The notes under the pieces were generated by a model. It searched no databases and was not told the origin of the DNA. It worked only from the letters and a program-made list of their open reading frames with translations. Positions 9,416-52,700 of a stretch of 64,000 nt of DNA are shown here, in pieces. The translations under genes and the position numbers were made by a program. Source of the DNA: Nereocystis luetkeana (taxonomy: Eukaryota > Sar > Phaeophyceae > Laminariales > Laminariaceae); assembly GCA_031213475.1 (NCBI GenBank), contig JARUPZ010000019.1, positions 4,331,901-4,395,900 on the forward strand. The letters are read 5' to 3'. Each line of letters begins with the position of its first letter. The first letter of the stretch is position 1.

Positions 9416-9527
9416 TATTACGGGGGACCATGGTTAATAGAACCAAATATCGTTAGTAAAAAATGGTAAATATATAGGTTTTCATGTATACCATAGGTCC
9501 TACCATTAACTATGGTCCCCCGTAATA
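9416..9527. mobile_element. Family A palindromic MITE
   Basis: TATTACGGGGGACCATGGTT at the left and ACTATGGTCCCCCGTAATA at the right; TA-flanked. Confidence 0.85.
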
Positions 9528-13300: not shown

Positions 13301-16300
13301 AAGCTTGAAAAAAAAAAACACATTCGCTCGCAAAATTTTATTAAAACTGTATACACAGCATACCTCGGCAAGACGTCTTGGGAATACTTTCCCGTCAGCA
13401 AACCTTGCGACAGGGGGCTGTACGCAAGCACGCGAACGCCCAGCTCTTTGCACAGCCGCAGATTCCCGTTCGTCTCGGGATTCCTTTCGGCAAATAATGT
13501 GAGAACGGGGAAAGCGTGTCAGTAGGTGGGACTGCCGGGGGTGGGTGGGTGGGTGGTTGGGTGGGTCGGGGGGGGGGGGGGGGGGGGGGGGGGCGGGAGT
13601 TGCTCGATAGGAGAGATGTACTCGATCTCATGCATGGCCGTAGTCGTATGACCATAGACCCTCGCATCCCTACAGTGCCGGGACGGAGCATGTCGGGTTT
13701 TCACCGACTAGGCAGAGATTGCTTGCACCAAGCGCGAAGCGAAACGTGAGATGCTCGGCGAGTCGCATGAAGGGTGAGCTGCATCCTACTAAGAACCACC
13801 TTTGTGAGGCGGACTTGTGATATGGATGACAGCGTCAATGAATTGATTTAGTTTCCGGTGTGACCAGTCCCAGAGACAGCAATGGGGGTATATTGTAACT
13901 GTCTCTTGGGTGCCTTACCACAGGCACTACGTGATACGATCATTCCCCTAATTAATGCGGAATGAAGGGCCTCCCCCCCCGCACGAATGATCTGTAACTC
14001 GATTGCCAGCTGTAACCGACCGCCAGAACAAACCAAAAAAACAGTACCCTGGTTGTCTAGCTCAAGTAGAGAGCGGCATGTTTTACAGTGTCGTTGCCAA
14101 CCGACGCCAACCCAACCTACATGATATAGGGGAGGGGGGGGTGGGGGGAGGGGGGCACGGAGAGCAAAGGAGCAAAGGAGGGAAGGGGAGAAGGGGGGGG
14201 GGGAGGGGAGGGGAGGGGAGGCTGGGCACTCGCTGATTTCGATCGAGATCACACACCGGTTGGCCAGCGAGAACTGGACCTGGTTGCTCCCGAGCTGGAT
14301 GCCCCTCGCCTTGAGGGCCGCGTGCGCCTGTTTCAAGGCGTCAGGTCCGTAGTTGCTGACGCCTACCGCCTGTTTAGCGAGGAAAACACACAAACGCAAC
14401 CGCCGTGCCATCATGGTCAAGCGCAGGCAGGCAGGCAGGCAGGCAAAGGCACGCCCCGGGCAGAGACGTGGGCGGAGGCAGAGTAGAGGCCGGACAGCAA
14501 AATTATTTCTTGGAAAGACCAAACAACGAGTAACGGAGACAGACAGACAGAACAACACGACGGCCATGTATATAATATATATATATATATATACTTCGAA
14601 GTATATGTATACAAATACACGGCGCTTCGCTCGGTGGGCGGCATTCGCTGCCCGCTACGCTCACGAACAAATGTGAAGTGAGTCGAGGGCCCGTGATTGT
14701 AGGCGCAAACCGGCGACTCGCAAATGCCAACATCCCCTTAGCCGTGCTCCAGGGAAACAAAATTGTAATAGACGGCACGTGCATGAGTGTGTATTGTAAT
14801 ATGAATATTACGGGGGGCCATAGTTAACAGGACCAAATATCGTTAGTAAAAATGGTTAAACATATAGGTTTTTATGTGTACCATAGGTCCTGTTAACTAT
14901 GGTCCCCCCCTTCTCAGGAGGACTCCGTCGGTATACTTTCCCACTTCAAAACAGCAGCCCTTCCAAGCTGCGTGATACTTCTTCTTGGATAGCTGCTGTT
15001 ACGGGGGACCATAGGGTAATAGGACCTGTGGTATACGTAAAAACCAAGATATTTAAACATTTCTATCAACAATATTTGGTCCTACCCTGGTATTAACTAT
15101 GGTCCCCCGTGATACCGGTAGAGCATAAAATTACTGTCGCCGTCTCTTTTCCCGATAAACAAAAAAAAAAACACCAAGTTCAACGCCGAACAATCAACAA
15201 AAAAAAAGCAAAGGGGAAAACGAGGGGAAGGAGGAGAAACTCTCGTACGTACGACAGGCCGAAAAATCGATCGTTCCGAATGCCCGTGAGCTGTAAGAAC
15301 AACGACAAAAGACGAAAACATACTTGTACAAGTATCTATTCTAAGAGAAGCATACTCGTATATGTGTAGACATGGTGGCTCTCGGCAACACCTGCTCTTG
15401 TCCGTTTGCCTGCTTTTGCTTGCTTGCATACGTCGCCGCGCTCTGATCCGCACGAACGTGCTGCTGTATGCACATGTCCGCTCTGTGTGGAGGGCAGATG
15501 GAAGGCTGTGCTGCTGTGCTTGCGGTACGTAGTTGGACTGCAGTGGCTATTGTCGGAGCTTGGTTTTTGCGCCTTACACGAAAAAACGAAAACGAAAACA
15601 AAAAACAGCGGAAGGCGAAGGAAGCAAGAAAGCGAATATAATAGCTCGAGGATCGATCCCGAAACAAAAAGAAAATATGTTCCCGTCGGCAAAAATACGG
15701 GCTGAGGAGGGCGGCGAGGTGGGAGAATACACCCGAGCGAGACAGCTGAGGGTCGGACTATTGCGGTATCAATGTATACGTGTAGTGTAAGCCTGGTACA
15801 GGGAATGGTGCAGCAGCAGCAGGAGCAGCAGCAGCAGCACGAACAGAGGAGACAAGAAACCCGACACAACACACACACTATCACCTGTTACGGGGGACCA
15901 CAGTAAATAGGACCTATAGTACTCACAAAAAACTGCATGTTTACATATTTTTACTAACAATATTTGGTTCTATTTGTCATAAACTGCTGTGGGCTGCGGT
16001 ACTGGTATTTCATACGGGTATCAGCATCTGCGAATATCGACATGAAGCAAGTCACGGTGTCTCGGCGTCCGACGCGCGAGCCCCCAAATGGGCTGGCGGG
16101 GGCAGCTACGACCGAAACTGAAAAAAAAAAAACGAAAACCGCTCTTTCAAGCACCGGCGTTCCTGACCTAGCCAGGAGGTATACTTATCCGGGAGAGAGA
16201 TCCGAGAAAACCAAGTAGACGCCAAAAGACGTCGCACGATGTGGCTGGAAACGGGTAATGGTAAAACACGTCTTCTACACCGAGGCTCAAAAGTAACCAT

Positions 16301-19300
16301 CAAACCTGTTCCCCGCATTCCTCCCCTCCCATGCATTCCTCCACCGTCATAAGCAAACACTGGGTGTTGAAAAGCCACTCATTCGACCGCCACAGGACAC
16401 GTTGACACAGAAACACTCTGTCCACCCCCCCCCCCCGCCGCCACACCCACTCCCCCCTCCCTTCCCCCTCTCGACTTCCCCCCCCAATCCCCCGACTCCT
16501 CCCCCCCCAACCCTCTCCCCCCCCCACCCCCACCTCTCCCCACCCCCTCCACTCCCCCCCCCTTACCCCCACTCCCACACCCCTCCCTCACCATCACACC
16601 CCTCCCCCCCCCCCTCCCCCCCACCCCCGACATGCCTCTGGTATATAGTCTATAGAACAAATCTTCCCGCGGTAAATCTCACCTTGACGAGGCCTTGGTC
16701 TACACAGTCCGCGAGCCCGTCCCAGTATCGCGAGCTCAGCGGGCCGAAGGGCCAGTGTATCTGGTATATTTCCATGGTCTCCAGCCCCATTCGGTCCAGC
16801 GACGCCCTGCGCGGGCGAGGCGGGCGAGGCGGACGGACAAAACGAACCGGCAAGAAGAAGAAGAAGAAGTGCGGGCAGAAACAACGGAGCACGCGACAGC
16901 GGTTACCAGGTGCATCGATGTGATACACACACAGGCCGACGCACAGACACATACAGACACGCACGAACGCACGCACGCACACACACACAAAACACACTAT
17001 CACGGGGGACCATAGTAAATACCTGGTATTACGGGGGACCATAGTTAATAGGACCAAATATTGTTAGTAAAAATGGTCAAATATATAGGTTTTTATGTAT
17101 ACCATAGGTCCTATTAACTATGGTCCCCCGTAATAGGATCCTACGATACACACAAAAACCTACATATTTCCCTATTTTTACTACTACGGGGGATAATAGT
17201 TAACAGGGCCTATGGTTTACATAAAAACCTATATATTTAACCATTTTCACTAACCATATTTGGTCTTATTAACTATGGTCCCCCTTAATAGCAATATTCG
17301 GTCCTATTGACTGTGGTCCCCCGTAATAGATTTATACTTCCGAAGTATATACAGCGAATATACTGTAGATACTCGATGCATTTGCCACGATAGATGGTGC
17401 ACCAACCATTTGCCTTCTGAGGCTCCTCCCTTGGAGGGGACCTGTACACCCCACTCATAAACTCACCCTGAGAATCACGAAAGTGCAACCCCAATATAAA
17501 AAAACTACCAGGTATGGCCTACATATAGGTCATACACCGAAAAAATCTACCGCTCTGTCCCTAAATATAAGGGACTTTTTAATACTAATATTCAATCAAA
17601 ACGGTCCTTACGTTTAGGGGCAGAGTGATAGCGTTAAGACACGAACGACACCCCAGCAAATTTCTTCAGCGCCCTACACACCGTTTTTAGGACTGTTAGG
17701 GCTGCAGTCAGTCCCGTTTTGGGGATGAAGCACTCAAATTCCCAAGTAGTTTGTCCCCGCAAAACGGGACTGCGGTACCAAAAGAGATATAAGGAGCCCC
17801 CCCCCCCTCCCCAGCCAAAATGATTAGGCCAAAAAAGTGCCACCTGGTACTACGCACCGCTATCTCATAAACGTGGTATATTACCACTTTGCCCCGAAAA
17901 TAAAGGATTGTTTTGTATATTGATACTATACCAGGTATACAAAAGTCAATTATATTGCGGGATAGAGTCGTAATTCGAAGCATTGATTTTACGCACAGAT
18001 AGAGAGGAGGAGAGACCAAGGCGGGCGAAAAAAGAACACCCAGACACTCTTGCACGCCCGGTAAACTCCGATACACTAGTCGCGGAAAAGCGCGAGAGCG
18101 TGAGGTTTCGCGAAACAAAACCCGACGAAGAGAATTGACGAGCATCGGGAACGCCGCATGCACCTCCTGCGCCATAAAAAACGAAGGCAGGCAGGTATTA
18201 ATACGAGTATGTAAACCTGTGGGAGAGAAGGGGAAGACACCTGTGACCACAAATTTTTTTTTTTTTTTTTTTTGTCCGGAAAGCCACCGGAGGGAAATAA
18301 AAAAAAAAAAGTCCTCCAAACCAATGTTATTGATAGGAAAAATACAACTTGAGATGGAGAGAGTTGAACTTGATAGCTACAAAAAAAAAAGAGGAGAAAA
18401 GGTTGTCGTGCGAGTACTCACTTGCAGGCGTCGACCACCGAGCGGCGTCCTAACCTCCAGGGAAGAGGGGCGAACTTGCTCGCTGCGAGATCGGAGCGGT
18501 GCGGCGCGGGGCAGGGCGGCGAGGAAGGGAGCGCAGGGGGGGTTCTAAGGATATAGAAAGGATTGGGCGGGGGGGGGGGGGGGTGTACTCGATAGGAGAG
18601 ATGTACTCGATCTCTTGCATGGCCGTAGTCGTATGACCATAGACCCTCGCATGGCGGAGGGCGGGGGGCGAAGGGCGTGTGCAACAACATGGCTGGGTAT
18701 TTTCGTTGGAGATGCGACATTGAGGACGCGAATGCCAAGGCGGGTTTTTGGTCGTTCCAGCTTTTAGCATCGATGGTGTCCAGGGAACGCACCAGGGGTG
18801 GTACCGAGCTTTCCTCCCGAAATACCGCGCGCACGAAGGAAGGAAAAAAGGAAAGCCACCTCGATACGCTCGCCTCGTAGCACAGCAGTACAGTGCAGCA
18901 CGGTACGATACAGAAGTACCTGGTACAATACAGCTTAATTAAGTACAACAAGTACAACGTATTCGCTCTTCTACCCGGAACCGACCTGATGACTCAAAAC
19001 ACACACACGAACAAAAAATCACCAGCTGCCTGTAAAAGTGGGAGCCTGCGACAAACACGTAGTAACGGTCGGTTAGCGTAGGTACCCCTTCAACAAAAAG
19101 GCCAGGAGAAGGCACTAGCGCGTTAACCCTGTTTGGACTGCGGTCCCGTTGTGGGGACAAAAAGTACTACGGGGGGCCATATTAAATAGGACCTACGGAA
19201 TACACAAAAATCTATATATATCGTTTTTTTTACGATTACTATTTGGTCCTATTTACTGTAGTCTCCTGTATTAGTTCGTCCCCAAAAGGGGGCTGTAGTC

Positions 19301-25789: not shown

Positions 25790-27330
25790 GAAAGTGACTT
25801 TTTCCTCAGGCCGCTTCCTATGCCGTCGGATTTGCAGCCAGTTGAAAAAAAACTTTCGGCACGTTCGCATGAACTTTTGCCCCAGGAATGTTGGAAATTG
25901 GTCTTTCTTGCCTAACAATGTGTCGGATATCTCTTGAAGATCCATCTGGGGGTGTTTCCCGCTTCTCCGGGCACCCAGATACAGGGGATTGCCGTCCGCA
26001 CTTTTTCGATCCAACGGCGGGTCAAACACGATCCAAACGCCCGATCGAATCGAAAAATGTACCAGGTATATATTTCGATTCGATCCGATCCCCGATCACA
26101 GCCATATTCCCCTCGTTTGGAGCGAAAAAGCGCCGACGGTGACTTCTTGCAACCGGTGTTACTGGAACTCTGCATTGAGCGTGTGGTGCGCGGCTCCTGG
26201 TTTATGTCAGGCAACCCACGGTGGAGGTAAGCACTATCAGCTGTGAGCTTTGCCAGCTGGTTGCTGCGTATAATAAGCTCAAGCTCAGAAGAGTATAGTA
26301 CAAAATAAGTCTCTAACCGGACCCCTCAAGAAGCGGGAAACACCCCCAGGTATGTCTAGGAGGAAATTCCGACGCATTCTGAGGCGAGAAAGACCAATTT
26401 TCAACATTTCCGGCGCAAAAGCTCATGCGAATGTGCTGAGGCCTACTATGCCAATGGGAAAGCGAAGTATCAATGAAAAGTTTGAATGTCAAAGATACCC
26501 TCTACCTGGTAGATTTTTTTAGGACACGCTTCCTATGGGCGCGTTTAGAAGAAAAAAAAGTTCCAAACTTTTTTGAAAGGCCCTAAAAAAACAAATCTGG
26601 GGCCAACATCGGCTTGAGAAGAGCCCACGCCGATCTTTGGTTCGAAGCGGCGAGATTCCGAGTCCTTGACAGACATCGATCGACAAAACCAACGACTGCG
26701 TCATGAATTCTGAACAGAGTGCGCTCGTTAGGGGCTCCGGCCCGCCCCAGGGTCACAGTCTTCACGCCATGGGCGGCGTTATGTGGCGGGAACTGACCAG
26801 GCGTATGATTAAAAAAAAATGGGCGCTGGTGTGCTCAAAACAGAAGACAAAAGTTCTCCATTCGTCTCGAATGGCAAAAAATAGACGTTTTTTCAGGTTT
26901 GGGAGGATACCGTAGGGACGCCGCCGGCAACTCTCGCCCCCTAGACCATGGATCCACCTGATATATTCGAGGTCGTCATCTGTATTCGTTGGTCTTGCCG
27001 GACACCGAGCGGGTTGGCCGTGGACTGAGTCTATGTTGAGATCGAGCGTCGATCGTCGTACGAGCTGGTTTCGATCAGCGTGTTGACAATTTGCAACCAG
27101 AAAAAACAAATTGCGCCGCCTGCAGCCGTTGGGAAATAAAATTAGAAGAAAACGAACATTTTTCCTCGTTTTTCCCACAGCGGCGGCACGAGGATTTTTT
27201 CGGCTGTTCTTTGAAAGCAAAATGTTTGAAAAAAACTTTTTGACTTCGCGTTTCCATTTGCATGGGTCTGAAAGAGGATTTTTCAAGTGACTGCAAATCC
27301 GACGGCATAAGAATTGGCCTCGTGTCAATA
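25790..27330. mobile_element. Family D inverted-repeat element carrying a family C insertion
   Basis: Left arm TATGCCGTCGGATTTGCAGC through GGAAATTGGTCTTTCTTGCC. The right arm is the inverse, in two pieces: GAGAAAGACCAATTTTCAAC (26385) and CTGCAAATCCGACGGCATAA (27297). The gap between the pieces is the family C element at about 26437-27270. No transposase frame seen. Confidence 0.75.
26437..27270. mobile_element. Family C element, about 830 bp, diverged copy
   Basis: Ends CCTACTATGCCAATGGGAAA and CGTTTCCATTTGCATGGGT. The body aligns along its length with 50134-50963 (shared GAAGCGGCGAGATTCCGAGT, CGATCTTTGGTTCGAAG). Flanks CTGAG/CTGAA fit a 5 bp target duplication. Confidence 0.8.
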
Positions 27331-28690: not shown

Positions 28691-29261
28691 TGCGGATATC
28701 CCTCCAACACGTTGGGGCTGGCCACCAGGTGGCCAAAGATGTGTTCGTGATGTCGATTAATTTGTTCTTTAAAGCGAATTTCAGCATGCGTGTGGCCACT
28801 ATCGCTAAGCTCATCATGTGCGTGGGTATGCCACAAAGCGAAGCCCGAGGCGCACGCACGATGACCTTTACGTTTACGCCTCAAAACGTTCCGCCGCTTT
28901 TAGGTTGCCCCCCTGCCTCACTTCCTTGGGTCGACAGCGGAGTGTGACAAGTGGGCGGTGTTCGATAGCCTTACCCAGGAAGTAGACCGTGTAGCCACGT
29001 GACTGAAACAGCTCAACAGGTAGAGCCTTCCATGAAAAAAATACATAGTAGGAGGTCGAAGCATCCAACCTCGTCAGCAATCTCCCGGGTGAAACCCCTC
29101 GCCATATACTGCTAGTGTCTATTAAATAGGAGCACATCACAACTATTTTTTAGCTCACAAAAACCTATAATCCAAGGACGTTGGAGCGTTGTCGCCGAGA
29201 TTCGTACTCGCGTACAGCATTTTATCTACTGGAAAGGCTCAACGACGGGTAGAGTCTCCTA

Positions 29262-29366
29262 TTACGGGGGACCATAGTTAATAGGACCTATGGTATACAT
29301 AAAAACCTATATATTTAACCATTTTTAGTAACAATATTTGGTCCTATTAACTATGGTCCCCCGTAA
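29262..29366. mobile_element. Family A palindromic MITE, close to consensus
   Basis: TTACGGGGGACCATAGTTAA to TTAACTATGGTCCCCCGTAA, TA on both sides. The arms are almost perfect inverted repeats. Confidence 0.9.
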
Positions 29367-29867
29367 TATCGAACAGGCGGGACATTCATTCCCTTAAGCC
29401 GGATTTTTTTTTACTCCCGGCGGCCTTAATTCAAACCTTCCATAAAGCGATTCTTTTTCTCGAATACGTCCTCTCGTAGCCAGGAGGAGCTCGTGGGCAA
29501 TGAGCGTCGACATTAAGTCAGGGAAAAGGTTAATAACACAGCTCGACATAGCAGAAGAGTAGTGGAACTTAACGCACGCGCCCCCCTAGTTAAAAATGTC
29601 ACGAGAGCTTGGTGTTTCCCTCTTCAATTAACTCTGTACATATTTTCCCCAATACTAGTGCTGCACCAGGAGGTAGACCATGCGGCTGCCATTTCAGCTG
29701 GATGGTGGGGGTGCCGGAGGTATGCGCTCCCCGAGAGGGTGTTCCGCTTCAGCGTACAGTGAGCGTACACGACAAAATCGCTGACGGCGAATACGAGAGT
29801 GGAGCGTGCACCGTTCAGCGCCTCATTGCCCGTACAAGGTTCGTTAGGAGGGGTGTGATCTAATATC

Positions 29868-31619: not shown

Positions 31620-31878
31620 AGGCGTTCTACGATAGAGGTTCACAATAGAAGCTCACCCTAATTTTTCTGGGGCTCCTGACTTAAGAAGCTCCATACCTCA
31701 CCCGAAAACTGACTTCGGCTAAAATCACATTGCATCCCGAATGAATAATCCTATGGCTCAAGTAAACAAAAACGTCATTGTTCGACACAAAATCGGAATT
31801 TCGAGGATTTGGGGTTAAGGAACCCCGTCATTCAGAAAACCTTTTAGCGGAAATGTGCTACCTCTATCGTATAACGCG
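31620..31878. mobile_element. Family G palindromic element, copy 1
   Basis: Terminal repeats GCGTTCTACGATAGAGGT and ACCTCTATCGTATAACGC. The interior matches 33083-33329 in inverse orientation (TCACATTGCATCCCGAATGA). Confidence 0.75.
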
Positions 31879-32270
31879 TCGGTTGTTATCGACAGCATAG
31901 ACGAAGTGAAAAAATGTTAGATAGAGAGAGAGGAAGAGAGAAAGAAAAAAAAAGAGAGAGAGAGGGGGCTAAAGATCCGTTTGAAAACGTTGACGACCGA
32001 TGCGACACAGCACCGCACCACCGCGGGTTAATGGCCCATGATCCACAAAGTGTATACGCTGGCACCAAGTCGGCTATACGCGAAGGCTAGAATGACTGTC
32101 CGTGGCCTGCCCAACGGGTGTTTTTCTGTGATTGATATGGCTCACCCCCCCCCACCCCCCCCCTCCGTCCCTAGAATTCGTCGTCCTACGTCCCGCTTTG
32201 ATTTCCACCTCGCCCCTTGCCAAGGGAAAATACTCCCGCAAACATTCTGTCTAAGACGTTTTTTTTTCAG

Positions 32271-32530
32271 AAAAATGTCGAGCTGCTGATGGTCACCGCA
32301 GCGAAACCATCGTCCTTCACGTTGAAGGTCACGAAGACGTTCAAGGGGAGGAGGGGAGGGGGTACGAGGGCCTTGCGCTCACCGAGTCGAATGCGGACGA
32401 CGCGGGCAACGCGGGCATCAAAATCGAATCGCAGGACGTGGTGACGAGGGAACAGTGCAGGGAACAATTGTGTAACGCCCATCTTGCCGAAGGAAGCGTA
32501 GGCGAGCGGGGGGGAAAGGGGGGGGTGTAC
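32271..32530 (+). CDS. Candidate coding fragment or exon remnant, unknown product
   Basis: A strong acceptor (T8CAG at 32261-32270) is followed by an open stretch reading NVELLMVTAAKPSSFTLKVT and KTFKG. After a purine-rich tract (32345-32362) the plausible reading continues in another frame: EGLALTESNADDAGNAGIK, then IESQDVVTREQCREQLCNAH and LAEG. Both pieces look like ordinary protein without low complexity. Either a very short intron or a frameshift in the G-rich tract separates them; a frameshift would make this a pseudogene. A family F fragment follows directly at 32515. No protein family was recognised. Confidence 0.3.
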
Positions 32531-32640
32531 TCATGTCATGCACGGCTGTAGTTGCATGACCATCCCTCGCATCTCTACAATGCCGGGACGGAGTATGTCG
32601 GCTTTTCACCTATCAGGCAGACATTGCTCGCGCCGGAAGT
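32515..32640 (-). repeat. Family F 3' fragment, inverted
   Basis: G-run, TGTACTCATGTCATGCAC, then TACAATGCCGGGACGGAGTA and the GGCAGACATTGCTCGCGCC edge. Confidence 0.75.
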
Positions 32641-32740
32641 GGCGGAGGGGTGTACTCATTCACATGCGGGGGGGGGTTGTACTCATTCTCATGCATGGCC
32701 GTAGTCGTATGACCAAATATCCTCGCATCCCTGCAATACG
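32641..32740 (-). repeat. Two further family F 3' fragments, inverted
   Basis: GGGGTGTACTCATTCACATG and GGGGGTTGTACTCATTCTCA, the second continuing CATGGCCGTAGTCGTATGAC. Confidence 0.7.
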
Positions 32741-33082
32741 GGGATATAAAAAACGTGGCTACTACAGTACTCGTAAAAGCACCTCCTCTTCCGTGGGATG
32801 ACATGTTACTGTACTTCAGTGCCGTACTGTCCAGGGGCGAGTAGAAGAGAAACATGAGAAAAACACGGGGGGGCTTTTCCGTTTATGGTGGTGGGGGGGT
32901 AGCTTCACCACTTTGTCTAGAGTCACTGCAGATGTATCTGCTTCTTTTCACCTGTGAGGTGAAAGCTCGGTGTCGCCCGTGGTGATTTTTGGCATGGGGT
33001 GGCGGCATGAGTCAGCAGTAGTAGTACGGTCTACCAATTGGCCTAGGTTCGACAAAAAAAAAGGGTTGGTAATGCAGACAAG

Positions 33083-33329
33083 ACCTGTTCTACGATAGAG
33101 GTAGCACATTTCCGCTAAAATGTTTCTGGATGACGGGTCTCCTTGACCCAAACTCGTCGGAATGCCATTCTTGTTTCGAAAAATGACGTGTTTGTATACT
33201 TGGGCCATTGAATTATTCATCGGGATGCAATTGTATTTTTGCGCAAGTCAGTTTCCGGGTGAGGTATCGAGCTCCTCGGGTGAAGAACCTCAGAAATTTC
33301 AGGGTAAACCTCTATTGTAGAACGCCTCA
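33083..33329. mobile_element. Family G palindromic element, copy 2 (inverted)
   Basis: CTGTTCTACGATAGAGGTAG to AACCTCTATTGTAGAACGCC; inverse of 31620-31878 with some substitutions. Confidence 0.75.
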
Positions 33330-37897: not shown

Positions 37898-38412
37898 TCA
37901 TACATGATCCTTCTGGTACATGCCTGGGGTACTTTTAATTGTACCAGGTACAAAAGAGACTTGTACGTCTATTATTAATAATAATAGACGTACTATTAAT
38001 ACAGGGTACCTTGAATACCCCTCCCTCACCCTCATTAATATTCTTGTTTAGTGCCTCATCCCTCACGGTAAGATATCGAGCAAAATGGTCGTGACATTCT
38101 TCCGTCTGCGGTTCTACTGCTGCACTATTAATAGGTGTGCTCTCAATGTGGATCTCATACGTATATATCACCAATATCTGTACTGCTGTAGTTGGGCGGC
38201 CGCAGCAGGTTGCAGTCCATGATACTCGTATCATATCATACGTACCAGGTACCGCCTGTTAACAGTTGTTCTATTCGGACATCAACAATCAATAATTCCA
38301 ATGACGGCGGAGGTTACGTCAGGCAGGCAACCACCAGTATTAATAGCGCAAGGGCGGGAAAAAGCACCAGCATAGACTTGCAGCATACCAGGTATATTAA
38401 TAGTAAGCACGG

Positions 38413-39950: not shown

Positions 39951-40066
39951 TATCGTACAACATGAACAAATTTACCTGACGCCGATGATTACCGAGAGCA
40001 GTTGCTATTGTTGTTGTTCACATGTTAAGCCTTCAGGGAAAGCGTCGAGGACTGCCATAGCCAGTA

Positions 40067-40178
40067 GTACGGGGGACCATAGTAAAGAGGACCTCATATT
40101 GGTAGTAAAAATAGGTAAATATACAGTTTTTTGTGTTTACCATAGGTCCTATTTACTACCTGGTATGGTCCCCCGTAA
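40067..40178. mobile_element. Family A MITE carrying a CCTGGTA micro-insert
   Basis: GTACGGGGGACCATAGTAAA to GGTCCCCCGTAA. The right arm reads TTTACTACCTGGTATGGTCC, where other copies read TTTACTATGGTCC. Confidence 0.9.
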
Positions 40179-40263
40179 TAGTAGTTACGATCAAAACATC
40201 GCTGTTCACGCGCGCCCCCTCCTCATGATACGAGCCGTACTGCTGCTCGCTCCGCTCCCACTA

Positions 40264-40468
40264 TTAACCCTCCTAAGGCAGATTGCGGTCCCGCTTTGAG
40301 GACTAACCACTCTAATTCTACGAGTGAGTAGTTAGTGCCTCAAACGGGACTGCAATTTGTCCTTAACCCTTTTAGAACTGCAGTCTCATTTTGGGGACAC
40401 TCCACTCAAATTTCAAGTAGTTAGTCCCCAAATCGGGACCGCGGTTCTAAAAGGGTTGACAGGGTTAA
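40264..40468. mobile_element. Family B MITE interrupted by a second family B copy
   Basis: Left arm TTAACCCTCCTAAGGCAGAT; right edge CAGGGTTAA at 40460-40468. The younger copy sits in its right arm at TTAA. Confidence 0.75.
40363..40455. mobile_element. Family B MITE, inner copy
   Basis: TTAACCCTTTTAGAACTGCA to CGGTTCTAAAAGGG; flanks TTAA and TTGA (one base changed). Confidence 0.85.
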
Positions 40469-40906
40469 TAGACGGTTGGTTCGGCAGCACCCGACACGAT
40501 TTTGGTCGCTAGGACTGGGTCCTGTAGTCTGCGGATGAATGGTACCAGTACGTGCCGATGGCACGATATCGAGTGTCTGGAGTTGGAAGAATGCATCGAA
40601 TCAGGGAAAACAAGCTGAGGCAACTCGTGCGCTTCAAACAAACGTAACAAGCAGTTTTGTTTACTCCACTTCTGACCTTTCGATCAAGAGCTAAGAGCCC
40701 ACAGGCAGGCAGGGTGTTTTTTTTTCGATTGATTTGTCGACGTGCTTCCTAAATAGTATGTACCGCGGGTAGGTACCGTATGCCATGGTGAAGCTCGAGT
40801 ACACTCGAGAACTCTATGGTGTGTGTGTCTTTTGTTTATTAAGTGTCAATGCGGTAGTGTCAATGCCGGTGGCTTGGACTTGGATTCTAGGCTGCTGTAT
40901 TTAGTA

Positions 40907-41018
40907 TTACGGGGGACCAGAGTTATTAGGACCAAATTTTGTTAGTAAAAAGGGTCAAATATATAGGTTTTTATGTATACCATAGGTCCTATTAACTACC
41001 AGGTATGGTCCTCCGTAA
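40907..41018. mobile_element. Family A MITE carrying a CCAGGTA micro-insert
   Basis: TTACGGGGGACCAGAGTTAT to GGTCCTCCGTAA. The right arm reads TTAACTACCAGGTATGGTCC, where others read TTAACTATGGTCC. Confidence 0.9.
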
Positions 41019-41329
41019 TAGTGCTGCAACGGTACAGCAGGTCATTCGAGTATACATCACACGAATGTAACGTATTGACATCGGTTCTTACGTACGTACT
41101 ACCTCGTATACTATTATATTAATAGTATCATAGATATGAACTGGGTGTTGTGCTCTGTAATCGGGTCATCTTTTTTTTAGCCACGCCTTATGATACAAGT
41201 TCAACAACCATGTATGGTTGCTATTTAATAAAAATGCGCTTTTATTATAAAAAATAATTATCGCATGGTATTGCTAAGGTCGTCACAGGTTGTCAAGCAT
41301 ACTGCCAAGGCACTCTCGTACTATTAATA

Positions 41330-41426
41330 TTAACCCTTTTAGAACCGCAGTCCCGTTTTGGGGACAAATCACTCAATTTTCAAATAGTTTGTCCCCAAAA
41401 CGGGACTGGGGCCCTAAAAGGGTTAA
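41330..41426. mobile_element. Family B palindromic MITE, close to consensus
   Basis: TTAACCCTTTTAGAACCGCA to GCCCTAAAAGGGTTAA, arms nearly perfect. Confidence 0.9.
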
Positions 41427-41733
41427 TATAATAATACTATGCCCGCAAACTCTACACTGCTGCTGCTGCTGCTGCTGCTGTTGCACAGCAACTACTGCTT
41501 GCTTGTTGTACGACTACAGCAGGAGGTGTGCCGCTGCTGACAGCTGTAATGACCTTTGCAAGTCTCTGCGGGAAAATGCAAAGGTCGTCCATCACAGCAG
41601 TGGAGTGTCGCTAGGATTTCGCTCAGCAGAATATTTGAACTGTCGTCAACATGTCGTCATCTTCTGTGCCTTGGTGGAGGGCGAGTGCGTCGCACGCTTC
41701 AGGCTTCAGGCAACTCCCAAAGGGATCCACTTA

Positions 41734-41840
41734 TTACGGGGGAACCATGGTTATTAGGACCTATGGTCGACACAAAAACCTATATATTTACCTATTTTTA
41801 CTCGAAATATTTGGTTCTATTTACTATGTTCCCCCGTAAA
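41734..41840. mobile_element. Family A MITE
   Basis: TTACGGGGGAACCATGGTTA to ACTATGTTCCCCCGTAAA, TA at the left edge. Confidence 0.8.
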
Positions 41841-42844
41841 TAGTGGTCTAGCAGGTAGTCCTGTGTAATTTCCAAGGGTGGGTCGGGGGTTCAAATCTCA
41901 CCGAGTTCGTAATTTGTTTTTTTCGAGCGTGCGCGCTGGAGACAATAAAAATGGTTGTGATGTTATGATGCTATGATAGTGTACCTCTCGGCACCAGTTC
42001 GTAGCGTTTGGCGAGGGGAGGGCCCCGGAGATCGCTACTGTTGTTGCTATGTCGACGAGATTCCACGAACTCTAAAGCATATATTTTGTTGATTACCGGT
42101 ATACAGGACTACCTGCTGTCTGAGTGGTCTTCTAGCAGGTAGTGCTATATAATACCTGGTACCTGGTAATAAACAGTTTTTTTTTCGCAGTCTTAATCAG
42201 GTAAATCGGTACTCCGTAGACGTACTGCCAGTTACCAGTAGTCCCAGTACGTCGCCGGTCGGCAGTACCAGTACTCGGTGGCCCTGAGAACATCAAGTGT
42301 GTGCCTCCAAGTACATACATACGAAACGTCGACGAGAGGAGGGAGTGCTCAACTCGGCTCGCGGGGAATTGAGGGACTACTGCGCCGTACTGGAGCAAAT
42401 CGGAGGGAGCGGGCTTTGGGGGGGGGGGGGGGGGGCGGTATCATAGAGAAGACCTACTCCGTGAATCTGGTTGGCGCGCGAAGGCGCCGAATGTGTCAGA
42501 ACCAATGCTTTTTTCCTGAGGCATTCTGCCACTCCCGAGTTTTTTTAGCCGGTCCTGTGCCCACGCACTCTATTTTTGGCGACGAGGTTGTGTGATAACA
42601 GCAACAACAATACCAGACGTCTTGTCAATACTCTGTTTTCGAAGAGCAGGTTGTTTGGCTGCGCCCCACCCCCTCTGGTTGTGCTCAGCTCTTGAGTTTT
42701 CCGTAAGCCTCTGCGGTGTCTCGTGTTCAGCCCTTGTGCTGTTCCCCCCCCTGTCCGTCTGTGTCTGCCTCCACCTTCCGGGAGTTGGGAGTACGCGGGT
42801 GTTGTTTTTTAAAGTCTTGCACATGTTTTTCGATGGATCTGTCG

Positions 42845-43090
42845 GTTGGTTGTTTGATTGGCTGATTGGTTCTGTGATTCCCTTGATTGATTGACTGATT
42901 GATTGATTGACTGATTGATTGATTGACTGATTGATGGACTGATTGACTGACTGATCGATAGGCTGATTGATTGGCCAGTTGATAGGCTGATTGATTGGCT
43001 GATTGGTTGATTGATTGGCCGATTGACTGATTGATTGATTGACTGATTGCTAAATTGATTGATTGACCGATCGGTTGACCGACAGATAAC
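42845..43090. repeat. TTGATTGACTGA minisatellite
   Basis: Tetranucleotide-based (TTGA, CTGA, TTGG) tandem array of about 245 bp; shadow frames read NQSINQSI. Confidence 0.9.
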
Positions 43091-43187
43091 TTGGTCGATT
43101 GGTTCATTCATTGACACCATTCTCTCCCTAAAGACACCCTGCGAAACTTTTTCTTCTTGTGTCCCCTTCCTGTTGCTGATCTTGTTT

Positions 43188-43241
43188 CCCCCCCCCCCCC
43201 CCCCCCCCCCCTCCGCCCCCCCCCCCCCCCCCCCCCCCTCC
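43188..43241. repeat. Long C-run
   Basis: Two C homopolymers separated by CTCCG, forming the pyrimidine tract in front of the acceptor at 43281. Confidence 0.9.
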
Positions 43242-43281
43242 CCCACCCTGCTCGCCTTCGCTGCGCGCACTGCTCGGCCAG

Positions 43282-46200
43282 ATCGTCCACCGATGCTGCG
43301 GAAACGGCGAAATCGTCGCCTTATTTGTCGTCCGCGCTTATCGACGCGCCCGGGCGAGGGGTGGAGACTGACAAGCGAAGCAACACGCCGGCCTCGATTG
43401 TGGGCGCCGTTCTCGGAGCTCTAGCGGGCGCCGTGGGGCTCAAGCTTTGGGAAGGCTTTCTGCACCACCGTGGTCGCAGCGGAGAGGGGGGCGAAGGGGG
43501 TGTTGACGGGGTAGAGGAGGGGTCGGGCGCGGGGGAGGGGGTGGAAGGAGGACTTGAGGAGCAGCAGACGAAGATTCAGACGCTGGAGGAGCAGCTGGCG
43601 GTGAGCGGAGGGATAAAAATTGCGGACTACTGCGGACTGGTTCATTATTATTTTTATTTTGGGGGGGGGGATGGTTTTGAAGTGCGAGGTTCTGGGACAA
43701 ATTGGTCGCGCCGTTTTTTTTACACGAATAGGTTTACGGAGGGAAGAAGGCAGGGCGCCCTGCTTTCCCACCTGCCTACAGTATAGGCCCCGCGCTGTAC
43801 ATGCCCCGTTCTGGCGAGAGTTGACCCTTTTTATGACCGCAAAGATGATCCTATCATAATTTCAAGCAGTGAGTGGTGCTACAGCAGCGGCGAGGCTAAC
43901 ACCCCATATTCACGCGGGCGAGTGACTCTGTACCTAGCTCAAGGTTGAAGTTGAAAAAATGTACAAAAGTTGGCGTGTAGCGCAACAAACGATACCATGG
44001 CGGTGCGTATCGCCAAAACCTCAAAACCACAAAAAAAAAAATTGAGACTGCAACAGAAGTGGGGGAGTCTCTCGGCCTCGTAGTGTCTCTGAGCGGCTGA
44101 AAAAAAAAAACGGCCTAAATATGTAAACCCTTAGCCCCCCCCCTATATATATACCGTAGACATGGGGTAAGGTTTGCCCCCAAAATGTGGAATGCAGTTG
44201 TGAAAGGGTCGAGGGTCCAGGGTTGGCTTTTGCCGGAGACCTAAAAATAGTGCTGCCGCGAGGAGTTTTTATTTTTTCATTTTTTTAGAAGGCCATCTGT
44301 CTCACTTCCGGCCGGAGGAAGTGCGTGCCGGTATTTTGAGTCGAGTCCAGGGCTGCGCCACGGGCAATTTCGCTCCCCCCCCCCTCCCCACCTCCTCCTC
44401 TCCACGCGCTCTTTTTGCGAATTTGACTTCGCCCATTGCATTTTCGTGGCTTAATGAGCGAATTACTCCCGCCCCCTGACGCTGTTTTGTGTTGAATCGC
44501 GTCCAGTACTGCGCCACCGGCAATTTGACCCCCCCCCCCCCCCACACACACACACTCGGTTGGCAACGACACTGTAAAACATGCCGCTCAATACGTGAGG
44601 TAGACAACCAGGGTACCGTTTTTTATTTTTTTATTTTATTGGCGGTCGCTCACAGCTGGTTGTCGAGTTAGATCATTTTGTGCGAGGTAAAGAGCCTTTA
44701 CACTGCACAAGGGGATTGATCGTATCTCGTAGTGTTCAAGGTAAGGCACCCAAGAGGCAGGTACATAGTACTCCCAGTGCTGCTCTCTGGAAATGCCTAC
44801 ACCGGAAATTAAATCAACTCATTGAAGCTGTCATCCATGTGCAAGTCCGCCTCGCAAGCGGTTTTTAGTAGGATGCAGCTCACCCTTCATGCGACTCGCC
44901 GGACACCTCACGGTGCTTCGCGCTTGGTGCAAGCAATGTCTGCCTGGTCCGTGAAAACCCGACATGCTCCGTCCCGGCATTGTAGGGATGCGAGGGTCTA
45001 TGGTCATGAGATCGAGTACATCTCTCCTATCGAGTACACCCCTCCCACACACCCCTCCTCTCCACGCGTGCTTGTCGCGACTTCGTCTTCTCCCATGACG
45101 GTGTTTGCCTCCCCACTATGTTATCGTGGCTTATGAGCGAATTTACTCCCGCCCCCTGACGATGTTTTGGTTTACCGTTACCGGCTTGATCGTCTACGTG
45201 TATAGTACCTGGAGGAGGACCGACGAAGGGTGGCGGCGGCGGCGAAGGAGGCCAGGGTAGCCCGGCGAAACGACGACCGACAGCTGAAGGAGTACGTGCA
45301 CACGCTCGAGGTGCACCTCGACCAGGTCTGCTGTTAGGCTATTGAGTATTTTTTGTGACTGTTCATGGCACGTTTTACTTCCTGCCGTTTCGTGTTTTAT
45401 TCGTTTCCGACTCTAATTTCGAGTATTAATAGCTTTGTCACGTACACCTGGGTGCGGTAGAAGAAAGGCTATTATATTATGCCATAGCGCCAGCAGCACG
45501 AGCAGCAGCAGCAGCAGCAGCAGTGGCGGCGACGGTAGCAGCAGCATGCTACGCTGCGTGTATCCAGGCTGCTGTTGACGGGACGGGCACTACTCGCCCC
45601 CGTCCTGATTTGTTATACCTACGAGGTTCCCCTTCGGGATTGTCATTGGGTGACTTGAATCCCAGGGGGTGTCGCACATTGAAGAGGGAGTACACAGCAA
45701 AAAGGCGTTCGCTCCTCCTACCAGCTCCTCATACGTAGCCACCGGCCAAGAACGAAGAGCATGAAAACGCTCTTGAAAGCTGAAAAAAGAGAGGTACGGC
45801 ACCGGGCAAGTGAACACCGACCCGCCCAAACGTGTTCATGGTTACGTAGTTCTATAGTACTTGGTATGCCGCACTATGTATGTATGTGTTGGTATTTTGC
45901 TGCTGCCTGTAAATTGCAAGCAATTGTGCCGCGGGTGCGTGTTACCTACGGACGGCTCTGGTACGAGTTCGTATGAACGGGAGAGGCCGTGCGATATAAT
46001 CCTGTTTCGACACGGCTAATTGTCGGGCGGAAAGCGGCCATCTGTTTTGCTCTTCTCTCCGGACACCCGCGGCTTGCGAGGCTTGATTTTGTACTGACTT
46101 TTGGTGGGAACTCGCTTGTTGACGTGCTCTGCTTTATAGGTCGATGGGGCCTGTCACCCTCCCCCCCCCCCCTCATGCTGCGCGAGGCACGCTGAAAGGT

Positions 46201-46717
46201 ATTCCCAAGAGCGTTGACCCCAAGCTCACAATGGCTGTATGCGGGCCTCCTCCTCGTCATGCCGAGCGAGGCACGCCCCAAGGGCTTCGACCCCCAGCTC
46301 ACACTGGCCATATACGAGTAGGCTGATTGTGATCGTGGCGCAAACGTTGCTGGTCTTGCTTGCTCCGCGGCAGTGACGCCCTCGCCCCCCATCTCTACCC
46401 TTCTACCCGCCCCCCCGTCCCCGTCTCGGGATCGGCCTCTTTTTATTCTGTACCCTGGTTGGCAGCTGTCGAAGGAGAAACAGGAGTCCGAGACGACGCT
46501 AGTGGAGTCCGTGAAGGCCGAGACCGCCAAAGCTCTCGAGCAGGCTCAAGAGGTGATTGCCTCGTCAGGTTTTGCGGCCTTCCCGCTGTAGGCTGGGGCC
46601 TCCTGTTGTATTTTCTGTACCAGGTAGGTGCGTAGTCTTTTGCTGTATTTCACAAGTCTTCCGTTGCACCGGGTATCTATTACTGCCTGCCTACCTGCCT
46701 GCCTGCCTGCCTGCCGG

Positions 46718-46769
<52 letters not shown>

Positions 46770-49700
46770 CTTGCCTGCCTTACTGCCTTGCTGCCTTTCT
46801 GCCTGCCTGCCGCACGTCGCTTTGATATCGTTGACAGGGACACCAAGCCGCCGCTGTCGCCGCGGAGGAGGAGGCGCGGAGGCTGAGGGACGACCTCGAG
46901 GCCACGCAGGCGCTCCTGGAGACGGCGGTACGCGAGAGGGCTGTCGCCGAGCAGGAGAAAGCGGCCGCGGAGCAGGAGAAAGCGGCGGCGGATGCCCTCC
47001 TGCGGACGGAGCAAGGCCGCGGAGGTACCACCGCGAGTCGTTTTTTTCATGTTCTGTAGACGCAGCAGCCGCTGCCGTTACTGTGTTTGTCCGTAGTTTG
47101 GTTGTGTGTGTACTTTTTCCGTCTGTGACGAGGGTGCTTGTTTGCTTGCTGTGCTTGGTCTCTTTGCTTTGCATACTTGCTTGCTTAGTATAGCATGCTC
47201 GCATGTAAACACCTACATGCACGTGCAGGCGAGCACTTGCGGGCTTCCTTCCTTTTGTATGCTTGCGTTTTACGCTCGGCCCTGTGTTTGGGTCCATGCG
47301 TGTGCGCATGCATGGATGTACCCATGGTCAGGTTTGTTCATGCTTGGACCTGCGCTTCTGTCTCTGCTCGTGTATTTGCTTCGGTCTCCATTTGTCTCTG
47401 CTTGGGTGGCTGCTTCGGACGCGAGCTACATACGGTAGGAGTATCACAGCTCCTAATATACCTGCACCTCCGTCCTTCAGGACCTCTCTATCTCTCACCC
47501 AAGCGGACAAAAAAAAACAAAAACAAAAAAACAGATGAGAACAAGCCCATGGCCTAGTAGGTACGCAACAGAACATATCGTAAAACACGAATGACATTCC
47601 GACGATATTGGATGACATTCCAACGATACTGAGTGCAGTGGTGTTGCCAGTGCCCTCAAGGGAACACCCCGTCAGCCAGAACCGGTTTCGCCAAACAGTA
47701 CCAGAACGCTCCTTATCGGACCTCGAGTCTTAGGGCCCATGCTTGTGTCCTGCTCGCGCGGCGTGGAGCGTACGAGGGTGGGGTGCTGCCCTCGGGGGAA
47801 TGACGGGGGGGGGAGGGAATGGGCGGTGCGAAACATTGTTTTGCCTTCGTTGCGACCGCGCGGCGTGTTGGGGGCAGCGCGCGCGGTCCTTCGCCGTTTC
47901 GCTGGGGGCCGCTTTCGCGCGTCGCACAGGCGGGGGGGGGGGGGGGGGGGGGGGGGGGAATGATATTTTTGTTTTTGCGGTCGGTCGGGTGGTCGGTCGG
48001 TCGGTCAGTCGGTCAGTCAGTCGGGTGGTGGAGTGGTCGGTCGGTCAATCGGCCTGTGCGGTGATGCGTCCGGTGGGGTGTTGACATGACGGTTTGTAGG
48101 CCCGATCCTTCTTTCCCTTCGTGGCAGTGGCTTTGTTTTGGACCGACGGACGGACCTTTCTCGGGACCCACGGCCCTCATGACGGACCGTTTTTTACTCT
48201 ACTGTAGACCCTCATCAAGACGGGCCTCTTTCGACTCTTGACTTTCGTGCGCGCGATTCGGTGGGCTCGATGTCTCTTCGATCGCCCCCGCTCCCCAGCT
48301 CACAGCCGCTTGCGGCTTGGTCGCTTTTACGTCCGAGTTCCGAGTCCGAGTCTCAGGCCTGGGAGCTTCGTTGTTGTTTGTTTCTGCACGGCTTGTTTAG
48401 GGCTACGTAATTTGGGGATTCGACCCTATTATAATAGAACTCCCGAACGCCTGTTTCGGGTACAAGTTACTTGGAATTAGAGTACAAATATGTTTCTTCA
48501 CAGTGCACCGGTAAAATGGTCAACCCTTGCAGAGCTGCAGTCTCGTTTTGGGGGCAAACCGCTCAAATTATAAGTATTGATCGTAGTTGATCCCACTGGT
48601 GTTAATAACGGGACTGCGGTCCTACTACAGTAGTAGATGGGTTGAAAGTCAAGCAAATTTCAACCATTTGGTCGAAGCAGCTGGACCAAGGTTTATGCAG
48701 CCTCTCCAGTAGTGTTTTTCACAGTTCATGGTGTTGGGTATTATATAAAAAAAATCGATATGGTATCGAAACATCGAACTTCGGATATATCGAAATGTCG
48801 AACTTCCGATATATCGAAATACCGAAGTTCCGATATATCGAAATATCGGACGTGTTTTGCCTTCTCCCACCCCCTGGTATATATCCCCGTGTTTTTGATG
48901 CGGGCGTTGAACGAAACCTTCAATCTACCGGTATCAAATATCGAAATCGTATGTACGTACGTATTGAGGACCTGTTAGTATTTTTGGTGATGTATATATC
49001 GGTGTCGTATTGCACTTGTTTCTCGTTCCGATACCCAACACTACCTGGTACTGGTAGGTGTTTTACGACTTGGCTCAGCTTCGACAAAATGCTTGATAGT
49101 CCACACCACACTACAGCAGTAGTGCCGATCCCTCTGTACTGCCGGTATGCGCCAGCCAACAGTACAGCAGTGCCGGCACTATATATCGTGTACCTGGTAT
49201 AGCGGCAACCGGCATTACCCCACCCACGATATAGATCACGCTGATGAAGCCCATCTGTCCCAAGCGATGCCACAGGCACTGACTGCTGCAGTGGGCACAC
49301 CGGCGCTACTCAACCGGCGCTCTATTACGGGGGACCGTAGTTAATAGGACCAAATATTGTTAGTAGAAATGGTTAAATATATAGGTTTTTATGCATACCA
49401 TAGGTCCTATTAACTATGGTCCCCCGTAATAGAGGGACCAACACTGCTGTGCGTAAACCCTCACTGCATCCTCATCCCGAGCTATTTCCCAGGCGGGGGT
49501 GGTTCGGGTTTGTGTTTTGATCCTTTTAGAACTGCGATGACTATTACGGGGGACCATATTAAATAGGACCTATATACGATACACACAAAAACCTATATAT
49601 ATATATCGCTATTTTTGCTATTAATATTATAACAATATTTGGTCCTATTTACTGTGATCCCCCGTAATAGTATTACGGGGGAGGTCTGCGTGGGGTTGGT

Positions 49701-52700
49701 GGTTTGGGACCACGATTTTCAGCCGTAATACAGGTTATGGTTACAGTACGTAGTGGGGTACATCCATTTTAACTCCTTTAGGACCGCAGTCCCGTTTTGG
49801 GAGGAAACTACTTGAAATTTGAGTGGTTCGTTCCCATAATTGGACTGTTCTAAAAGGGTCAAGACCACCCCGTGACGAGCCAATAAACGTGGCCTTAGCC
49901 CCAACTCGGTCTTGTCTCTTACTATTACGGGGGGCCATAGTTAACAGGACCAAATAGTGTTAGTAAAAATGGTTCAACATATAGGTTTTTATGTATACCA
50001 TAGGTCCTGTTAACTATGGCCCCCCGTAATATTACGGGGGGCCATAGTTAATAGGACCTACCTGGTATGGTATACCTGGTACATAAAACCTATATATTTA
50101 ACCATTTTTACTAACAAAATTAGGTCCTCTTAGACCTATGCCAATGGTACAGCGAAGTTGCAATAAAAAGTTTGAATTTCAAAGATTCCCGCCAAAAAAA
50201 ATCAGAACACGCTTCCTATGGGCCACCCAAAAAAAAAAAAAAGTTCCTAACTTTTGGAAAAGCCCGAAAAAAGCAAATCTGGGGCCGATGTTGGGCCAAC
50301 ATCGGCTTGAGAAAAACTCAGGCCGATCTTTGGTTCGAAGCGGCGAGATTCCGAGTCCTCGACAGACATCGATCAACAAAACCAACGATTGCGTCACGAA
50401 TTCTGAACGGAGTGCGCTCGTTAGGGGCTCCGACCCACCCTAGGGTCACCGTCTTCACACCATGGCCGGTGTCATATGGCGGGAGCTGACCAGGCGTGTG
50501 ATAAAAAAACATTTGGCCGCTGGTTTGCACAAAACAGAAGACAAAACTGCTCCATCCGTCTCGAATGGCAAAAAATAGTCTTTTTTTCAGGTTTGGGAGG
50601 ATACCGTACGACGCCGCCGGCAAGCTCTCGCCCCCTAGACCATGGATCCGCCTGATATCTTCGAGGCCGTCATCTATACTCGTTGGGCTTGCCAGATACC
50701 GAGTGGGTTGGCCGTGGGCTGAGTCTATGTCGAGATCGAGGGTCGATCGTCGCACGAGCTGGTTTCGATCACCGTGTTGACAATTTGCGACCAGAAAAAC
50801 ACAAATTGCGCCGCTTGCAGCCGTTGGGGGAAAAAAAAGAAAAAATCAAACATTTTTCTCTTTTTTCCCCACAGCGGCGGTACGAGAAATTTTTCGGCTG
50901 TTTTTTTAAAGCCATATATTTGAAAAAAAAACTTTTCAACTTCGCGTTTCCATTGGCATAGGTCTTAGCTATTTTTTTTTTTTTTTTTTTTAGTCGTCAC
51001 TTTTACTTTCCAGCCTAACTCGTAAGAGGTTTCACCCTCAGCGATCTTCTGGACAAGCCGTGGTCCCAGGTGTCGTCCCTTCTCCCCCCCCGGTACGTGC
51101 CTTTATTTTTTGTCGCGCATAGGGTTCAGCATTCCCACTGCTCGTCGAATTTCATCTGATGTAGCTAACTCACGCTCTCGCGCTTTCCGCCATGGTCCCC
51201 CGTAATACGAGTACTGACCGCACAAACTTCGAAGATTTTTTTTTCCTCGTGACATAGGTCGATTTACCTGGTCTTTTTCGTCCAGAAAAACGGATCTTCT
51301 TTGCCCTTCTTTTGTAGTACTGCAGTCCCGTTTTTAGGGACGAACTACGTATAAAAAGGGTTGAGGTGGGTGTGCCCCACTGTCCATTTTTTCGACGTTT
51401 CTGTCGACGGTAAGCCAAGGTCTATCTACATACTTCCCTATGGCGTCATAGATCGACGCCTTCATTTTTTTTTTTTTTTTTTTTCCCAAAACGCATTTTG
51501 TGTTTGCCTTTTCCTTGTGCATTGTGTGTGTTTGTACGTAACGTTTTTCAGGGAAATACTTGAGTTGGCGAACGGCATGGGGAATAAGAGGGGGGGTGTG
51601 CACCAGCACGATGACGCCTCCATTAATGGTGGAAAACCGCACAAAATGTAGGTACAACGATGTTTTTTGTAAGCAGGCGTGGCTTGCTTGTGTTGGCGAG
51701 GAACGAAGAAGAAGTTTTCATGTTTTTGTGGTTTGTCCTTGTTTTATACCCCTCTGTCCGGAAATGCTAAGTACCGTTCGGGTACATTGATATGGACACT
51801 CAACCGGTCCCCTCCTTTCCGGGCAGAGCGGTATTTTCGAACACTTCCACAGGTACGTACTCGTACCAGTGAAACGCTCGCGCACGAGGGGTCGACTGGA
51901 GGCACCGGAAAAGTCCGTGTGATAACTCTTAGCATTACAGCTACCCAAAACAAATGCAAATCCCGAAAAAAAGTAAAAGCCTTCAGACTTTTTGATTCCA
52001 TGGAGTATTTATAAAATTAAAAACATAACAGCTGTGAGACCGAGAGTTTCGTCGAAACTCATCTTTGCAAGCCGTGTGTGATACTGACTTCGATTGCGCG
52101 TGCTACGGGTTTTATCTGGCCTCGTGCGGGAAACGTAGACCGTATATGAGGAAAGACAAAAACTAAAGCTGCAGAATTCAAGGAGTGGGTGTGTCTGTAT
52201 TTGGGAAATGATGCAACTATTTTTTCGGAGGTTGCGCGTAGCTTGCGTACGAGTGGGGAATGTGACGCTTTTTATATTTCGCAGACCACGATATTACGAT
52301 TGCGCTTTTTACACCTGCAATATGAATCACATCATGCTTCGCAAAACGATAACAGCTAACCTGTACGTATATACACAACGCTGTTACAGCAGAGTGCCGC
52401 ACCGACGTGTTCATTTCCAGTGTTGAATATGAAAAGCTGCAGCCGACCTCCCCGCTGCCCGGCCTGTCGACCGACCAACGACTGACGTCTCCCGCTCGAC
52501 CTTGATCGTCCCAAGCCCCCCCCCTCCCCCCCCCCCAAAAAAAAAAAAAACTTCCTCCCTCCCCAACTCCCCCCTCCCTCCCCTAATCCCCCTCTGCGAA
52601 CCTCCCACGCCAAACAAACACCCCTCTTCCACCCCCCCCCCTCCAACCCCCAAACCATCATTTCTAACCGCAGCCGCGTTAGAGAGGGACGCCGAGAAGC

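Follow-up and report, generated by a model that had tools for sequence, protein, structure and literature searches.

We report here on a stretch of 64,000 nucleotides from Nereocystis luetkeana (contig JARUPZ010000019.1, positions 4,331,901 to 4,395,900; hereafter the window), in which a palindromic word, TACCWGGTA (W being A or T), recurs as a 7-bp gain at TA dinucleotides. We consider this word to be, quite probably, the excision footprint, or scar, of a cut-and-paste transposon of the Tc1/mariner type that targets and duplicates TA. The insert is derived, recurrent and tied to TA, because filled and empty sites were found in Family A and in other repeats as well. Family A is a palindromic miniature inverted-repeat transposable element (MITE) some 105 bp long, which duplicates TA and has TTACGGGGGACCATAGTTAATAGGACC as its inverted repeats.

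The word is present in large excess. Within the window TACCWGGTA occurs 36 times, half with A and half with T at the centre (18 each), against a mean of 0.44 and a maximum of 2 in 50 first-order Markov simulations, and across the assembly (465,085,209 bases in 1,987 contigs) it occurs 182,395 times, the reversed word, taken as control, reaching 1,744. Under an order-3 Markov model, 111 copies were found where 2.5 were expected in the window together with 20 further 10-kb stretches (L009-L028); with two more stretches added, TACCWGGTA was the most enriched of all words of the form TA-N5-TA (119 vs 2.7), and in a sample of 324 kb, made up of the window and L009-L034, the counts were 148 vs 3.2. 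This larger sample includes 30 kb from a motif-dense place, L031-L033 having been drawn from a motif-dense stretch. L001-L008 were picked by motif, and L001, L002, L003, L004 and L007 also entered the sets used for the empty-site, gap, inverted-repeat, flank and spacing, and decay tests described below. Many words were tested, and their number was not corrected for.

The enrichment depends on the flanking TA and on the central base. In the 324-kb sample the CCWGG core with any of the 15 other symmetric flanks was found 1-5 times each (1.2-5.9 expected), directly duplicated flanks other than TA stood mostly close to expectation, and a C or G at the centre was seen only 13 times (2.1 expected), against the 148 copies with A or T. 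The control words TACGWCGTA, TAGCWGCTA and TACAWTGTA gave 2, 2 and 0 copies for 2.8, 2.3 and 2.0 expected; TAGGWCCTA, entered as a further control, was found 21 times (0.8 expected in the 324 kb) but proved to be Family A sequence. Four coding stretches, a small sample holding 57 TA dinucleotides together, contained no copy of the motif.

BLAST grouping placed 18 Family A loci in the window, five of which hold the insert at TAs that are plain in most copies, with six insertions in total, one of them an 8-bp CCCTGG form. Filled and empty sites, all in Family A except the palindrome at 26060, are as follows, without strand.

40157..40165: scar TACCTGGTA in the Family A copy 40065-40180, where other copies read ACTATGG; 26 ungapped empty relatives
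40997..41005: scar TACCAGGTA in the Family A copy 40905-41020, at the same MITE position as at 40157; 23 ungapped empty relatives
50059..50067: scar TACCTGGTA in the Family A copy from 50030, where other copies read CCTATGG; 14 ungapped empty relatives
50073..50081: second scar TACCTGGTA in the same copy as 50059, where other copies read TATACAT
15083..15092: six-nucleotide variant scar TACCCTGGTA in the Family A copy 14999-15114; of 29 relatives that span the junction, 28 have no gap
17020..17028: scar TACCTGGTA on the margin of an incomplete Family A arm (from 17000), adjoining a full copy at 17027-17136
26060..26068: scar TACCAGGTA within the AT-rich palindrome 26041-26087 (arm 18, loop 11)
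29260..29368: unfilled Family A copy, the reference for the empty form, its arm reading ACTATGG
49323..49431: unfilled Family A copy, its arm likewise reading ACTATGG

A first-pass annotation of the window had proposed that, once the MITEs had spread, 7 bp were gained repeatedly and specifically at TA, and the sites on which it relied are present: the insert at 40157, 40997, 50059, 50073, 15083 and 26060, the last splitting an AT-rich palindrome as described, and the arms at 29356 and 49416, which are empty and read ACTATGG. To these can be added a further filled Family A arm, at 17020. Two details needed amendment, in that the variant placed at 15067 is real but lies some 15 bases away, at 15083, and that the addition of CCWGG plus a duplicated TA describes most events, whereas this variant adds 8 bp. 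The proposal itself was upheld, with empty forms in the majority and the insert also interrupting repeats other than Family A. Nor is the form with CCWGGTA ancestral, since filled copies are outnumbered, as the 26 and 23 empty relatives of the sites at 40157 and 40997 illustrate.

For a broader view, the insert and one TA were deleted in silico at each site and the sampled DNA was searched again for a relative spanning the junction. In a first pass 15 of 126 sites had such a relative, usually but not always without a gap at the junction. Under strict conditions an ungapped empty relative was found for 8 of 117 sites, compared with 11 of 1,005 other TA-N5-TA sites (Fisher p=0.0003); four of the eight lie in Family A (40157, 40997, 50059 and L026:7056) and the rest in other repeats (in L009, L012, L002 and L003). 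The site at 50073 is not among them, having a neighbouring scar and one A missing just downstream. Genome-wide, one Family A junction is filled 35 times by the exact word, with no match for the control, and by hand count of the listing these oriented copies divide into 19 with CCAGG and 16 with CCTGG. Some of the 35 may derive from one shared event; in the window, the two fillings at a single MITE position (40157 and 40997) differ in their centre base. Another filled Family A copy was seen at L037:1969. An unbiased tally of gaps over the alignments was dominated by differences between subfamilies, with CCWGGTA ranking second among the 7-bp classes (5 of 43 events). Separately, the Family A copy at 9418-9525 of the window has CCTACCATTAAC in place of CCTATTAAC, a 3-bp gain after TA that is perhaps a different or incomplete scar.

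The inserts share a narrow range of shapes. Nearly all are five nucleotides long, with a minor form of six; the latter is TACCAGGGTA or the complementary word, of which the 324 kb contained 11, and TACCTGGGTA was absent from the same sample in either orientation. Correspondingly, TA follows next after TACCAGGG in 11 of 21 cases and after TACCTGGG in none of 13 (p=0.0018), so that the extra G accompanies only a central A, as expected of contiguous pieces of a transposon end that starts CCAGGG. Isolated scars (184 flanks) show a symmetric target preference, a pyrimidine and then A standing beside the TA. Exact words numbered 118 (2.6 expected) and one-mismatch words 132 (56.9 expected), and recognisable scars have diverged by about 0.65 changes per 9 bp; this decay indicates that the process has been long-running.

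These features can be accommodated by a model of excision. The ends of the transposon would begin 5'-CCAGG, probably CCAGGG, and after staggered cuts some five nucleotides of the end would stay behind on either side. Annealing between the resulting 5'-CCAGG overhangs would be complete but for a central A:A mismatch, whose repair would yield either CCAGG or CCTGG between two TAs, for a net gain of 7 bp. The near-exclusive A/T centre, the signature looked for as a mark of mismatch repair, is proposed to arise from this mismatch between annealed overhangs.

A parallel to this model exists in the same genome. A second dispersed word bounded by TA, TATTAATA (TA-TTAA-TA), is about tenfold enriched in the 324-kb sample (76 vs 7.8 expected), and fits the ends of Family A, the terminal inverted repeats (TIRs) of which read TTACGG. 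Examples in the window lie at 8385 and 45424 and at the following position.

38126..38133: TATTAATA, without strand, in agreement with the ends of Family A (TT + AA, flanked by a TA on either side)

Empty relatives were found for 6 of 66 TATTAATA sites; among other TA-N4-TA sites the figure was 44 of 1,368, a large share of these 44 coming from a few repeat subfamilies. The flanks of TATTAATA favour TAC-TA-GTA, as do those of Family A insertions (37 flanks). Based on this agreement, TATTAATA is probably the scar of Family A, composed of TA, the first two bases, the last two bases and TA. In the window, at 37959-37997, a palindrome GTACGTCTATTATTAATAATAATAGACGTAC has the TTAA word at its centre.

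A candidate for the autonomous partner of Family A came from a profile search of the genome with PF03184. Ten of the 46 matches listed cover one small part of the model and lie in long open frames, and two of these ten, L035 (C2:6044557-6048327) and L036 (C10:3951757-3955527), are 99.7% identical over 3.7 kb. Their right end, which has TA directly after it, shares 23 of 27 positions with the Family A TIR; the left end falls outside the stretch. The 513-residue frame of L035 encodes a DDE_3 protein (Tc1/mariner/IS630; E 2.7e-12). From these sequence matches we infer that Family A has its autonomous partner in the multi-copy L035/L036 element, and that this element was recently mobile. Because Family A, TATTAATA and the DDE_3 protein offer this parallel, CCWGG is likely, by analogy, to have the same kind of origin as TATTAATA, from a different element.

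The source of the CCWGG scar was sought directly. In the DNA read, scans for inverted repeats starting at TACCWGG gave only scars paired by chance or duplication. The best candidate for an intact CCAGG-ended element was a near-perfect palindrome of 65 bp (L029:382-446) with mirrored CCAGG and CCTGG scars, the end word of which occurs 95 times genome-wide (control 0; by hand count 86 with CCAGG and 9 with CCTGG). In each of the four places examined among the 95, only one palindrome arm was present and the similarity ran past the word on both sides, so that the candidate was rejected; we take the palindrome to be a scar that was inherited as part of a longer repeat. Two DDE_1 loci, L037 and L038, were also set aside as a source, a TA-flanked inverted repeat not having been found there. 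Profile searches of the genome with PF01359 and PF13358 gave no matches, a result of little weight since one of these searches missed the DDE_3 protein of L035. Large inverted repeats at L031:4565-6111 and L032:4637-9781, both on C1 near 218-234 kb, have arms 97% and 91% identical where aligned, and when these arms were compared no clear-cut difference of 7 bp emerged. The Family A arm pattern had no matches in viral contigs or in prokaryote genome contigs.

Several results count against a Tc1/mariner-type excision scar. At five nucleotides, or six in the minor form, the scar is longer than the 2-4 bp given for Tc1/mariner footprints; it works like such a footprint, at a length beyond the quoted range, and we do not claim full membership for it. 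No CCAGG-ended element was found in the approximately 364 kb read of the 465 Mb, a fraction in which a low-copy family would be missed, and the palindrome in L029, the best candidate, was lost. For 109 of the 117 sites the sampled DNA held no strict empty relative, and the comparison with CCAGGG was post hoc, having been devised after the data were seen. The expectation of the first-pass annotation that insertions be confined to TA is borne out by the symmetric flanks and loosened by a mild, unexplained excess of duplicated AG (8 vs 2.0), GT (7 vs 1.6) and AC (6 vs 1.6) flanks in the 324 kb. Also unexplained is the word TACAGCAGTA/TACTGCTGTA, found 34 times for 1.9 expected and containing no inverted pair of end pieces. 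This is a third dispersed word bounded by TA, with examples at 21312, 49112 and 56544 of the window.

Other origins for the word were weighed. That CCWGGTA is a short duplicative unit spread by slippage, microhomology repair or gene conversion, with no transposition involved, we regard as improbable. Tandem copies do exist, some of which may be slippage: six successive pairs are 7 bp apart, among 19 successive spacings below 60 bp, and one repeat unit (L041) has two copies where its relatives L039, L040 and L042 have one. Yet close spacing is rare, the copies are not mainly in tandem arrays, and most are single and in unrelated surroundings. Slippage would moreover need a pre-existing copy, whereas the filled sites sit in repeats whose relatives have none, and neither the symmetric target preference nor the occurrence of both centre bases at one position would be explained. 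Selection keeping or spreading the motif, for instance because proteins bind it or because it is methylated, seems very unlikely to us: a palindromic 9-mer with 182,395 copies could serve for binding, and CCWGG is described as a methylation motif in other organisms in the parts of the literature consulted, but selection does not create a duplicated TA and five further bases within a MITE copy, and the plentiful one-mismatch forms indicate that conservation is not strong.

Two further explanations address the scarcity of visible elements, and to both we attach only a very slight probability. One is that the five-base palindrome is itself what was inserted, through abortive or capture events in which a transposase acted on bare end fragments. 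Scars far outnumbering visible elements with such ends in the DNA read would fit this, but the six-nucleotide CCAGGG forms and the parallel with Family A fit excision more simply, and we know of no precedent for a minimal inserted unit of this kind. The other is a domesticated or programmed TA-specific excision, in which CCAGG-ended elements would be confined to another life stage or lineage. Their removal in development, on a very large scale, would leave over 100,000 scars in the assembled DNA and next to no elements. It would account for scars without a visible element, and the TA boundaries resemble those of sequences eliminated in ciliates, as far as the sources seen in part describe them. 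Against it, the varying mutation of the scars marks many of them as old and inherited, and no such excision was described for brown algae in the titles and abstract openings of the literature searched. Ciliate-type removal is, in addition, usually precise.

If the word is an excision scar of a TA-targeting transposon, one transposon lineage would have written about 100,000 or more datable 7-bp scars; the exact words alone amount to about 1.3 Mb, which is 0.27% of the assembly. Excision, usually invisible, would become countable genome-wide, with its rate, target preference and repair outcome measurable from sequence. The scars would further form a class of footprints that exceeds published lengths, and would supply many small insertions that repeat annotation is likely to overlook. 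The genome thus seems to hold a countable record of past jumps by an element that was not found.

The window itself is nuclear DNA of a brown alga, because it contains a frame of 655 residues for a pseudouridine synthase with named relatives in Scytosiphon, Ectocarpus and Pylaiella (50-56% identity), parts of short-chain dehydrogenase genes and a C-terminal domain of APC1. A scan of the window for Rfam families and tRNAs returned nothing above the Rfam threshold and no tRNA. At 31618-33329 lies an element-like pair of long inverted repeats, the outer arms of which begin TGAGGCGTTCTACGATAGAGGT; the arms are about 260 bp each, with 78-92% complementarity in pieces and 1.2 kb between them.

Among the closest known likenesses is that with Sleeping Beauty, the footprint of which is TAC(A/T)GTA. 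Footprints of Sleeping Beauty and mariner, like the CCWGG scar, are bounded by TA, enclose a short stretch of the transposon end and have an A/T centre; the difference is that Sleeping Beauty leaves three nucleotides between the TAs and the CCWGG scar has five. Passages of one paper describe how three-nucleotide 3' overhangs become the footprint (PMC7827188), and a review gives it as TAG(T/A)CTA (PMC2874221). In our 324-kb sample TACWGTA, a three-nucleotide form like scars of the Sleeping Beauty type, was found 116 times (46.7 expected), an excess that may hint at a further element family. Passages of other papers place Tc1/mariner footprints at 2-4 bp (PMC7913693) and those of Passer, a pogo element, at 0-4 bp (PMC9976928). 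PMC2170065, considered as a further comparison, was discarded, the part seen concerning DNase footprinting. The scar was not described in the titles and abstract openings retrieved for the motif words or for genome-wide and brown-algal footprints, which is weak evidence given that subscription literature is mostly uncovered by such a search. In PMC12477816, on Mariner-Tc1 elements of Ectocarpus, the term 'excision' is absent from the main text and the passages describe no scars.

For Stowaway-like MITEs and plant mariner elements, passages of PMC4561436 report a 2-bp target site duplication (TSD) and footprints that keep the TSDs together with short end sequences. Family A is organised in the same manner, with ends that read TTACGG; in the DNA read, no MITE of 105 bp with CCAGG ends was found. 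The excerpt of a rice comparison gives 8 of 94 excisions as perfect (PMC4423477); in N. luetkeana a single scar form dominates. Brown algae are rich in Mariner-Tc1 elements, mostly non-autonomous; Ectocarpus has 17 such families with almost 12,000 copies, according to the passages of PMC12477816. The L035 transposase of N. luetkeana has relatives in Ectocarpus, for example P0036 at 61% identity.

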